Virus record (IMG/VR): IMGVR_UViG_3300030110_000494
Coordinates: 1-22,764 of that record
Direction: 5' to 3' (one strand)
Length of the DNA: 22,764 nucleotides
From: a virus
In this document: one piece after another, positions 20,583-22,764 of the stretch
Position numbering within the stretch: the first letter of the stretch is position 1
Layout: the number at the start of each line of letters is the position of its first letter
Translations under genes and position numbers: made by a program
The notes under the pieces: generated by a model
Databases searched by the model: none
What the model was told of the DNA's origin: nothing
The model's input: the letters and a program-made list of their open reading frames with translations, nothing else

Positions 20583-20907
20583 CGCTAGTCTCCTTCTTTG
20601 ACTGAATGTATCCGTAAAACAGGATTACATAGTTAATAATGTCCAGAATAGTATCCTCGACAGTCTCGTCTGCTACCTTTAGAACTCCTCCCTCACAAAA
20701 CGTAGACAGGCGTGACATCTTGTCAGTAAGTCTCACCCCAAACCCCTGTTCCGTGGTGCTAAACCCCATGGCTTCGCAGCGGGTAAAGTTAGCAAAGGGC
20801 ATTGACCGGTCTTGGCCCCCTGCATAATCGTGGTTTTTCTTTTTCATCAACTCAAAAGCCTTGGAAGACAAGTGGTTGTGAAGACTCAGTAGTTCATCCC
20901 TGTTCAT
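20515..20907 (-). CDS. Nmad1/DUF1599 MazG-like nucleotide-associated protein
   Basis: A 130-aa all-helical protein with the pattern of the nucleotide modification associated domain 1 family, related to MazG-like NTP pyrophosphohydrolases. The features are KKKNHDY at 22-28, FANF near 38-41, RLTDKMSR at 59-66, and DETVEDTILDIINY at 80-93 with acidic residues E81, E84, D85 and D89 in a metal-binding-type spacing. The likely role is hydrolysis or handling of a nucleotide, possibly linked to modified bases or to the alarmone/dNTP pool. No base-modification synthase is visible here. The C-terminal 28 residues are polar and overlap the next gene. An AAGGAG site lies 7 bases before the ATG, and the start overlaps the exonuclease gene end by 14 bases. 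Confidence 0.7.
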   Translation of the reverse strand: MNRDELLSLHNHLSSKAFELMKKKNHDYAGGQDRSMPFANFTRCEAMGFSTTEQGFGVRLTDKMSRLSTFCEGGVLKVADETVEDTILDIINYVILFYGYIQSKKETSDGEKETPKSRAGDAIEALACRS

Positions 20908-21661
20908 TTACGCACTCCTTGGGTGTCCACAGGATCACCTCTTGGTTATCAATGTCATACTCTCCATACCGCAGGATACGGGCTACCCTTGCCTGCACCA
21001 GTGCTTCTTCTTCGCACAGCCCAGCGTTCTCGTAGGCTTGAACCACTACGTCCCACGTGGGAGTGGAGAGTAACCTAGCGGCTCGCTTGGGGCCGATACC
21101 GGGGCAGCCAGAGTACCCGTCAGTAGCGTCTCCCATCAACGACTGGAGTAGATGATTGTAGTCAGCCTCTTTGTCGTCCACTTCTACCACGCCCTCGTCT
21201 GGTTTCTGTGGGTTGTAGTGCAAGCCGGGGATTGTGCGAAGGTCCTTGTCAATAGTAACAACAATCTTATCGCCTTCAATATCCTGCCACCCGCCAGCCA
21301 GCAAGCCTAGCACATCGTCCCCCTCTAGGTTGTCGAAGTAATAGGTCTCGAAGTTGTCCATAATGTGGTTACGCATAGGCAAGAAAGCCAAAGGTTTTCG
21401 ATGGACTTTCCTGTGGAGTTTGTAGGTAGGAAGAATGTCTTTGCGCCAGTTGTTTAGGCCTGACAAAGTCATTACTACCCGGTCTCCACCAGTGTGATCC
21501 TTGATGTTTCTTATCCAAGCATTGAGAATTGTCTTAGCCTCACCCGCGTCAGACACCAAAGACCACAGGTCATTGCCCCAGTGATACTCTTCTTCTACCG
21601 CCTTTGTGCAGTGGTAAAGAGCAACGTCCCCGTCAATTAGTAGTGTAGGTTTATTAGCCAT
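20894..21661 (-). CDS. 5'-3' exonuclease (T7 gp6-like, FEN family)
   Basis: Metal-dependent exonuclease and flap nuclease that removes RNA primers and degrades host DNA to supply nucleotides. It has 255 aa (T7 gp6 is 300). Acidic metal ligands are visible in order: LLIDGD at 7-12 (D10, D12), NLEGDD at 111-116 (E113, D115, D116), TIDKD at 136-140 (D138, D140), and GDATDG at 177-182 (D178, D181). The helix-three-turn-helix DNA-binding loop GCPGIGPKRAARLL is at 185-198, and the arch basic segment WRKDILPTYKLHRK is near 72-85. All key residues are present, so it should be active. It overlaps the preceding 73-aa gene by eight bases (ATGGCTAA). Confidence 0.92.
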   Translation of the reverse strand: MANKPTLLIDGDVALYHCTKAVEEEYHWGNDLWSLVSDAGEAKTILNAWIRNIKDHTGGDRVVMTLSGLNNWRKDILPTYKLHRKVHRKPLAFLPMRNHIMDNFETYYFDNLEGDDVLGLLAGGWQDIEGDKIVVTIDKDLRTIPGLHYNPQKPDEGVVEVDDKEADYNHLLQSLMGDATDGYSGCPGIGPKRAARLLSTPTWDVVVQAYENAGLCEEEALVQARVARILRYGEYDIDNQEVILWTPKECVNEQG

Positions 21662-21875
21662 CTATTTCCCCCGCCCCTCCTTCGAGAGACACCCTTGCAA
21701 TAGAGAGTAGTCCAAACACGCCGTGAAGCGACCCGCCAAAACAAACAGTTATTCCGTCCATTGTGTCTGTCTTGTGCTGTGCTGCCAGTAAAACAAAGTC
21801 ATCGTGACGCCTTTGTAATTCTTTAATCATCGCGTCGGTTGACTCATATTCCAGAGGGTTGTTCGTATCCGTCAT
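21654..21875 (-). CDS. Hypothetical 73-aa protein
   Basis: Function unknown. The N-terminal half is a charged helix (DAMIKELQRRHDDFVLLAAQ), and the C-terminal half is Gly-rich with a hydrophobic patch (GGSLHGVFGLLSIARVSLEG). It has no recognised motif. It overlaps the homing endonuclease gene by 32 bases upstream and the exonuclease gene by eight bases downstream, so it is translationally packed into the replication operon. The ribosome site is weak (AAGAG-like). The long overlap suggests that the endonuclease gene's 3' end grew into it or landed beside it. Confidence 0.6.
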   Translation of the reverse strand: MTDTNNPLEYESTDAMIKELQRRHDDFVLLAAQHKTDTMDGITVCFGGSLHGVFGLLSIARVSLEGGAGEIDG

Positions 21876-22257
21876 AGACTACTCTTTTCAGTTGCTTGAG
21901 TTTTTTCTTCATATCCGAACGCTCTGGCGACGACGCCTTATGGCTTAGTATATCAAGATTAATCAATGCCTGTTCTTTTTTCTCCATCAAATAAGGCATC
22001 ATTTTTCTCAAGGCGTTTCTTGCAGTATTCCCGTAAGCAACCCACCTGTACCCCGCTCTATTGTTAGGTCCAGCAGGACTCTTAAGGTATATCCTCCCGC
22101 CTTCGAACGCTATAAGATACTTCTCCAGAATATACGGGTTAGTGTTGTCAACCATTATACGGTCATACAATACACACCCCTCTCCGTCAAAGAAACCAGC
22201 GAGGTACGATAACTCAATGTGTTTCTGCCCAGTTATTTCCAATGGAATACTCCCCAT
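21844..22257 (-). CDS. Free-standing LAGLIDADG homing endonuclease
   Basis: A 137-aa protein with one LAGLIDADG helix, YLAGFFDGEG at residues 18-27; E26 is in the catalytic acid position by analogy with I-CreI. One motif implies a homodimer. The C-terminal part contains the family pattern RWVAYGNTARNALRKMMPYL, then a Lys-rich helical tail. It probably cuts a site in or near DNA polymerase alleles lacking this gene and spreads by repair. It overlaps the 3' end of the polymerase gene by 44 bases in another frame. The ATG at 22257 has no evident ribosome site. A TTG at 22242, 7 bases after GGGGAG, is a better-supported alternative start giving 132 aa. T7 has an HNH-type gene (5.3) in the same location. 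Confidence 0.85.
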   Translation of the reverse strand: MGSIPLEITGQKHIELSYLAGFFDGEGCVLYDRIMVDNTNPYILEKYLIAFEGGRIYLKSPAGPNNRAGYRWVAYGNTARNALRKMMPYLMEKKEQALINLDILSHKASSPERSDMKKKLKQLKRVVYDGYEQPSGI

Positions 22258-22764
22258 CTAGAGGACAACGGAAGTTGAAGAAGTCGCCCGCTCGTTGAAT
22301 GCAGGTGACGGCAACCTTTCCTACCATCTCTGCATCCTCTGGGTTGCATTCAAACTGAATCTCATCGTGTATATGGGCTACCTGTTTGAAGTCGATACCG
22401 GAGGCGGCAAGTTGTCTGTTCATGTAGACTGTAGCCTTTTTAACCACGACTGCTCCGGCTGATTGTAACAGAGTATTGAGGGCAGAGTGCTGTGATCTTA
22501 TTTTTAATACCCTACCGTCTATGCCCATAAGGTAACTCTTGGACTCTACTCGCATATCAATGGCTGCCTTGAGCCTTGCGAGAGCCGGGGTCTTAGCGAG
22601 GAACTGACGCCTGAGCCTGCGTCCTGCTTCGGCACCCTTGCCAATTACAGACCCAAGTTTCGTATCCCCAGCACCGTATAGGAAGGCGTAGATAAATACC
22701 TTTGACTCGTTCCTTTCGTTAAGCCCTGCCGCCAACTGATTAGCGGTATGGATATCTCCTTCAA
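22214..22764 (-). CDS. DNA polymerase (T7 gp5-like, family A), C-terminal part only
   Basis: Replicative polymerase. The last 182 codons are inside the window, and the gene continues beyond its edge (the frame is open to 22764). The visible part starts EGDIHTANQLAAGLNERNES, parallel to the T7 segment before the O helix. The O-helix residues are K-V-F-I-Y-A-F-L-Y-G-A-G-D, so the equivalents of T7 R518, K522 and Y526 are conserved. Motif C is HIHDEIQFE with the metal-binding HDE. The C-terminus IGNNWAETH parallels T7's GPNWAICH, so the 3' end is complete and functional despite the overlapping homing endonuclease gene. Helicase-primase and RNA polymerase genes are not in this window. Confidence 0.95.
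   Translation of the reverse strand, partial: EGDIHTANQLAAGLNERNESKVFIYAFLYGAGDTKLGSVIGKGAEAGRRLRRQFLAKTPALARLKAAIDMRVESKSYLMGIDGRVLKIRSQHSALNTLLQSAGAVVVKKATVYMNRQLAASGIDFKQVAHIHDEIQFECNPEDAEMVGKVAVTCIQRAGDFFNFRCPLDGEYSIGNNWAETH

Follow-up and report, generated by a model that had tools for sequence, protein, structure and literature searches.

A free-standing LAGLIDADG endonuclease gene, probably of the homing kind, at the 3' end of the DNA polymerase gene in a T7-like phage

How can an endonuclease gene be lodged across the end of an essential phage polymerase gene, and does it reside there as a homing element or as a settled inhabitant of the locus? The stretch of DNA analyzed here, a virus record of 22,764 bases (the window), derives from a T7-like phage that is read on the minus strand. 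The 3' part of a T7-type family A DNA polymerase gene (22214 to 22762, minus strand; PF00476, E 1.7e-21; phrog_15971, E 2.8e-57), the remainder of which lies outside the window, is followed by an endonuclease ORF (21844 to 22257, minus strand; 137 aa from its ATG), recognized by ORF calling, a Pfam/PHROG match and a predicted fold. Next come a 73-aa ORF (21654 to 21875, minus strand), a 5'-3' exonuclease of the T7 gene 6 type (20894 to 21661, minus strand; phrog_107, E 7e-59), and then small genes and a head-tail connector. Three of the small genes overlap in tandem after the exonuclease (20907-20515, 20582-20316 and 20344-20126), with overlaps of 68 and 29 nt. The endonuclease ORF is a real, intact and selected LAGLIDADG homing-type gene, and we consider it likely, with good but not complete confidence, that it is a free-standing, single-motif, I-CreI-like homing endonuclease gene resident just after the polymerase gene.

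The ORF shares sequence with both neighbors, as an earlier interpretation made from the window alone (the sequence-only reading) had proposed. Counted from its ATG, the first 44 nt belong also to the polymerase ORF, whose stop codon is at 22216-22214, and 32 nt (21844-21875) are common to the endonuclease gene and the 73-aa ORF; about 340 nt are free of overlap with either. The polymerase C-terminus, described as intact in that reading, is indeed complete: PF00476 is matched up to profile position 381 of 381, and the terminal residues ...IGNNWAETH before the stop are conserved. An Rfam search gave no match up to E 1 and the polymerase frame is unbroken with a normal end, so there is no sign of an intron. 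The endonuclease gene lies outside any intron or intein, that is, it is free-standing.

The protein carries the LAGLIDADG motif YLAGFFDGEG (22177 to 22206, minus strand), with the catalytic acid E26 at 22182-22180. In the PHROG search it matched phrog_5046 (E 6e-16), and against Pfam LAGLIDADG_3 it scored 20.1 bits (E 8e-4), just below the cut-off of 22.5, which is exceeded by the relatives L008, L094, L095 and L101, with L257 below it. With E values up to 1 allowed, the Pfam matches listed for this protein included neither PF11645 (PDDEXK_5) nor any HNH family. A structure predicted with AF2 from 55 homologues drawn from the loci found in this analysis (model m650060e8c70d; pLDDT 91.2, pTM 0.81) was most similar to I-CvuI (Z 14.7, 2.6 Å over 114 residues), followed by I-CreI (Z 13.4) and I-MsoI (Z 13.2), and the top matches were all LAGLIDADG enzymes. 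An earlier model built from six sequences was poor (pLDDT 63), yet its best match was already a member of this class. Eight columns are invariant in the 55-sequence alignment: A20, G21, F22, D24, G25, E26, G27 and K93. The last of these (21979 to 21981, minus strand; 55/55) aligns with the catalytic lysine of I-CreI, K98 in the numbering of that enzyme. The modeled fold together with the invariant E26 and K93 indicates an I-CreI-like, single-motif LAGLIDADG enzyme with its catalytic residues in place, for which a homing role is predicted; one motif per chain implies that the enzyme is presumably a dimer. The sequence-only reading had named a single-motif LAGLIDADG gene and suggested structure prediction as a check on the fold, and both the assignment and the check hold.

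The likeness to I-CreI, I-CvuI and I-MsoI covers residues 9-128 of the window protein (Z 13-14.7) and includes one motif per chain and an equivalent acid and lysine. Those enzymes are homodimeric and encoded in group I introns of organelles, whereas the gene of the window protein stands free in a phage genome, and its product is shorter (132-137 aa) and about 22% identical over the aligned part. The small LAGLIDADG proteins of phrog_5046 from actinophages, Caulobacter phages and cyanophage PP belong to the same family (27-34% identity) but, in the cases examined, occupy other places: the cyanophage PP copy lies between terminase and portal, and others stand beside methylase, capsid and other annotated genes. 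A count over the endonuclease family would put 38 of 77 loci, those at polymerases among them, at gene ends, but some of the frames called upstream appear spurious where the DNA is GC-rich, and we give this count no weight. The label 'HNH endonuclease', attached to the window protein through phrog_5046 and several RefSeq copies, is wrong, given the lack of an HNH match and the LAGLIDADG fold. RefSeq records such as NC_055774.1 and NC_022751.1 call LAGLIDADG proteins HNH endonuclease, while several GenBank versions of those genomes say LAGLIDADG.

In viral contigs, the gene was found at this position in all five of the nearest polymerase relatives (97, 84, 80, 71 and 69% identity), each time with the 73-aa ORF behind it. 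No recent insertion is therefore demonstrable in the window's clade, and these placements indicate that the insertion there is not recent. The reading frame is intact in 6/6 genomes of the clade, with dN/dS of 0.05-0.07 where estimable; against the 96%-identical L004 it is 0.05 (dN 0.021, dS 0.405), which shows that the gene is kept by selection. Endonuclease and polymerase trees broadly agree inside this six-genome clade, within which inheritance looks vertical. The sequence-only reading had called for a comparison with relatives lacking the gene. None exists among the nearest five, and it is not until polymerase identity falls to about 50% that empty or refilled slots are seen: in L040/L042 no gene separates the polymerase from the homologue of the 73-aa ORF, which begins 26 nt beyond the polymerase stop, whereas in L025 a PD-(D/E)XK gene occupies the exact gap between the polymerase and this homologue.

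Mismatches between the window and L004 rise across the polymerase/endonuclease junction from 16/551 to 28/337 (p 6e-4), a jump that would be a weak sign of an exchange boundary. In a recombination scan of the same pair, divergence increases past the polymerase and continues to increase further downstream, which means that the jump is not peculiar to the endonuclease. Along 22764-15964, identity between the window and its nearest relative, L001, is about 97% in the polymerase, drops to 65-75% downstream and returns to 96-98% at about 17164-16864, a pattern suggestive of mosaic relatives.

The same junction was then followed into other polymerase lineages. Loci came from two profile scans and from polymerase scans seeded with L101 and L095, both carriers; of the 151 unique polymerase loci, 144 had sufficient sequence for use, and reduction at 90% identity left 89. 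A LAGLIDADG gene was present at the polymerase junction in 17 of the 151, always in the +1 register and within 17 nt of the stop, with L299 as an additional case. Excluded as slot carriers were L138, L139 and L142, with the gene about 2.4 kb upstream, and L158 (2941-3495), in which the motif lies 239 nt past the stop of a distant polymerase and the ORF is open back into the polymerase gene. The polymerase tree (87 rows, 14 carriers) requires at least five state changes, four of them forced by well supported branches, and places the carriers in four lineages; three very long branches (L138, L158 and L266) were omitted from this tree, the second one computed. Presence at this one site is thus patchy among relatives, with carriers in four lineages and the empty slot of L040/L042. 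Downstream neighbors differ by lineage and comprise the 73-aa ORF plus exonuclease, the exonuclease alone, or genes that are holin-like by eye. In L177 and L178, a lineage nested among LAGLIDADG carriers, the polymerase stop is followed at once (TGATG) by a gene for a 298-aa protein resembling the 3'-5' exonuclease/RNase H fold.

In the endonuclease tree, which was computed without L299 and retains two rows lacking a recognized motif (L104 and L115), the slot enzymes fall into three clades, with the least number of forced changes being 1. Endonuclease identity mostly tracks polymerase identity across lineages (Spearman 0.67), a pattern equally compatible with repeated homing and with a single ancient insertion followed by many losses. 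An exception is the comparison of the window's clade with L299, where the polymerases are 44% and the endonucleases 42% identical, which may hint at transfer. Among named phages, megablast of the whole window against 50,697 phage records gave no match, and tblastn with the window protein and its L101 relative returned 44 and 41 phage records, respectively, with no polymerase among the features listed under the matches; no phage isolate with a LAGLIDADG gene after a T7-type polymerase was apparent among those records. The polymerase profile was found beside none of 25 relatives in bacterial genomes (25 plus 80 second-scan loci examined).

The explanation that we regard as most likely for these observations is that the gene is a free-standing homing endonuclease gene, predicted to be active, in a hotspot used by several nuclease classes. 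Observed here are the catalytic residues, purifying selection, the same-register placement in four lineages, empty and refilled slots and the absence of an intron, together with the modeled fold; from these we infer dimerization, cleavage, the position of the target and homing. The endonuclease would dimerize, and the dimer would cleave co-infecting phages without the gene at a long, near-symmetric target in or close to the 3' end of their polymerase gene; repair of the broken genome on the carrier template would then give it the gene together with adjoining polymerase sequence. Lying beyond the last polymerase codon, the endonuclease gene would require no splicing. Several points count against homing: the nearest five relatives offer no empty allele, the two trees agree in the six-genome clade and identities correlate across lineages, and no clear symmetric target is seen near the polymerase stop. 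In the search for a pseudo-palindromic target around the stop no center stood out, the best mean being 4.3/9 paired positions in carriers and 3.9 in non-carriers.

An alternative is an old resident, a gene that entered once in an ancestor, was inherited with the polymerase as a module through many losses or replacements, no longer homes, and now has another role such as DNA binding or regulation. Presence in all five nearest relatives, the correlated identities and an endonuclease tree compatible with one origin of the slot LAGLIDADG group (least forced changes 1) are all expected under such a history, but the invariance of the catalytic residues is not demanded by binding alone. Moreover, the carriers are spread over four polymerase lineages with many non-carriers between them, and their downstream neighbors are completely different between lineages. 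We therefore hold this alternative to be improbable, though deserving to be kept in view, and prefer a homing endonuclease gene.

The probable translation signals of the gene lie within polymerase codons. The ATG at 22257 lacks a Shine-Dalgarno sequence and is ACG in the relative L008. In contrast, a TTG at 22242-22240 (codon 6) is preceded, at a spacing of 7 nt, by the Shine-Dalgarno-like GGGGAG (22250 to 22255, minus strand) inside the polymerase codons Gly-Glu, and this TTG is kept in 6/6 close genomes. Since a Shine-Dalgarno sequence is present at the TTG and absent at the ATG, and since synonymous change in the polymerase is suppressed around the TTG, the true start is probably TTG 22242 rather than ATG 22257. 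The gene would then run from 21844 to 22242 (minus strand), encode 132 aa and share 29 nt with the polymerase; the overlap of 44 bases given in the sequence-only reading is correct for the ATG but is probably too long.

Suppression of synonymous change was evident from counts over five genomes of the window's clade, with the near-duplicate L004 left out and comparisons that share genomes and are not independent: 2/32 in polymerase codons -10 to -6, 10/45 in codons -15 to -11 and 19/33 in codons -5 to -1. The corresponding values in polymerases without an overlapping ORF were 285/504, 355/650 and 238/466. For the single pair of window and L005, synonymous change was 1/14 in the last 15 polymerase codons versus 37/73 in the preceding 90 (p 0.003). 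The protected stretch, codons -15 to -6 (22232 to 22261, minus strand), coincides with the putative ribosome-binding site, the TTG and the first endonuclease codons. Position -28 holds a TTG in 10 of 14 carriers versus 17 of 76 non-carriers (p 6e-4, ignoring relatedness), while start codons of any kind in register are not enriched (11/14 vs 53/76, p 0.75, likewise ignoring relatedness).

Three of the 14 carriers (L099, L133 and L299) have no ATG, GTG or TTG in register within 47 nt of the stop, and in L133/L137 none is found from -220 nt to the motif. The start-poor slot frames of L133, L137, L099 and L299 must have an unusual or distant start, be reached by a frameshift from the polymerase, or be dying. 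The last of these options leads to the idea of a decaying relic, a gene that has finished homing and drifts, for which the start-poor frames are the supporting evidence; for the window it is very unlikely, since in its clade dN/dS is 0.05-0.07, the frame is intact in 6/6 genomes and the initiation region is protected from synonymous change. That the ORF is a chance alternative frame of the polymerase/73-aa ORF region and no homing enzyme gene at all, as its overlaps at both ends might suggest, is refuted by the roughly 340 nt free of overlap, the PHROG match, the fold match (Z 14.7) and selection, and we give it practically no weight.

To place the homing endonuclease gene among other occupants of the slot, ORFs of at least 60 codons around the polymerase stop were collected at the 89 loci non-redundant at 90% (102 ORFs in 72 loci) and assigned to classes by clustering with Pfam and PHROG support. 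Nucleases were found at 37 of the 89 loci: 13 LAGLIDADG, 19 HNH/endonuclease VII (a cluster of 15, seven of which were checked individually, plus L231, L232, L250 and L065), 4 of the phrog_5018/PDDEXK_5 family (L025 above the Pfam cut-off; L041, L045 and L047 below) and 1 GIY-YIG of the T5orf172 type, assigned to L209 by deduction because Pfam gives one member among the 102 and L209 alone matches PHROGs of unknown function. The exonuclease 3' end, treated by the same procedure, served as control (51 ORFs at 53 loci) and yielded at most 3 homing-type nucleases per 53 loci by Pfam (two HNH_3, one zf-His_Me_endon) and one by comparison with the 37. Three Phage_endo_I matches at the control position, presumably of the T7 gene 3 resolvase type, were left uncounted, and none of the families listed there by the PHROG search (25 of 82) was an endonuclease. 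Windows set at fixed distances had first been considered as controls and were given up, since a gene seldom begins at a point chosen at random.

The polymerase slot is thus enriched in nucleases (37/89 vs 3/53, p 2e-6; 34/86 vs 3/52, p 7e-6, without loci seen solely by the endonuclease scan), a comparison in which two polymerase scans were seeded with carriers, the loci are related, and the control, scored by Pfam and pairwise comparison, is less sensitive to the endonuclease VII group. By these assignments, at least three and probably four classes of nuclease occupy the slot. The sequence-only reading, which had two endonuclease classes settling at one site, was right that unrelated endonucleases settle there and too low in their number. 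Among named phages, an endonuclease VII-like gene follows the polymerase at a distance of 16 nt in Caulobacter phage S2B and of 13 nt in Mycobacterium phage jiawei. In L012 (3320-3763) a gene that is HNH-like by eye directly follows the exonuclease gene, a second gene end holding a homing-type nuclease.

T7 itself occupies the slot with gene 5.3 (L267:2484-2840), which begins 15 nt after gene 5. Its product belongs by profile to the PD-(D/E)XK class (PF11645, 42.1 bits against a cut-off of 26.1; phrog_5018, E 1.5e-46) and not to HNH, as the sequence-only reading had it. HNH is correct for T3 and phiYeO3-12, whose gp5.3 proteins match HNH_3 (68.2 and 66.9 bits) and whose genes begin 10 and 9 nt after gene 5. 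By these profile matches, what is called gene 5.3 belongs to one nuclease class in T7 and to another, unrelated one in T3. Both kinds share the slot with the window's gene, and a family relative of T7 gene 5.3 is the gene found in L025 between the polymerase and the 73-aa ORF homologue; both differ from it in nuclease class, PD-(D/E)XK in T7 and HNH in T3 and phiYeO3-12, and in having no overlap with gene 5. One article (PMC4925675) describes gp5.3 as present in SH2 and phiYeO3-12 and absent from the close phage SH1.

Related arrangements are known from other phages. The classes of phage intron endonucleases given in PMC3984707 are GIY-YIG, HNH, PD-(D/E)xK and EDxHD; LAGLIDADG is missing from that list, in agreement with the remark in the sequence-only reading that this class is less usual in phages. 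The same article describes how a single site can attract both introns and free-standing enzymes. In T7-like phages, introns of the polymerase gene are reported to carry HNH enzymes (PMC3428280), and nuclease genes are reported near essential genes, with 29% of one HNH type near polymerases (PMC10448857). The ShiLan element, as presented in PMC11855218, resembles the window's gene in being a homing nuclease in another frame of a conserved gene, but it is of the HNH class and internal to a phage methylase gene rather than at its end. A LAGLIDADG gene situated at the end of a T7-type polymerase gene was not described in the literature titles and abstract beginnings searched, a coverage that most subscription journals fall outside. 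The kind of enzyme is known; new within this coverage are a LAGLIDADG gene in the polymerase slot, its fixed register in four lineages and start signals hidden in polymerase codons.

A joint reading of these features is possible, but we advance it tentatively and with doubt. A LAGLIDADG lineage may have specialized on the polymerase stop codon, with its ribosome-binding site and TTG shift-framed into the most conserved target codons (Gly-Glu ... Ile-Gly), and the slot may be a shared docking port in which LAGLIDADG, HNH/endonuclease VII, PD-(D/E)XK and GIY-YIG enzymes replace each other, all recognizing the invariant polymerase 3' end. If this were true, a recipient polymerase of the right codon usage would already supply the translation signals for a newly homed gene.

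Two misleading labels are corrected by this analysis, namely HNH for T7 5.3 and HNH for phrog_5046 and several RefSeq records. The window protein is a compact relative, encoded by a phage, of I-CreI, whose scaffold serves genome engineering, and the overlap of its start signals with polymerase codons provides a concrete hypothesis for how an endonuclease could be expressed without harm to an essential gene. As a third fold at one address, besides the HNH enzymes of the T3 type and, by profile match, the PD-(D/E)XK gp5.3 of T7, it offers in the polymerase slot a natural setting in which to study why nucleases of unrelated classes come to the same site and supplant each other.
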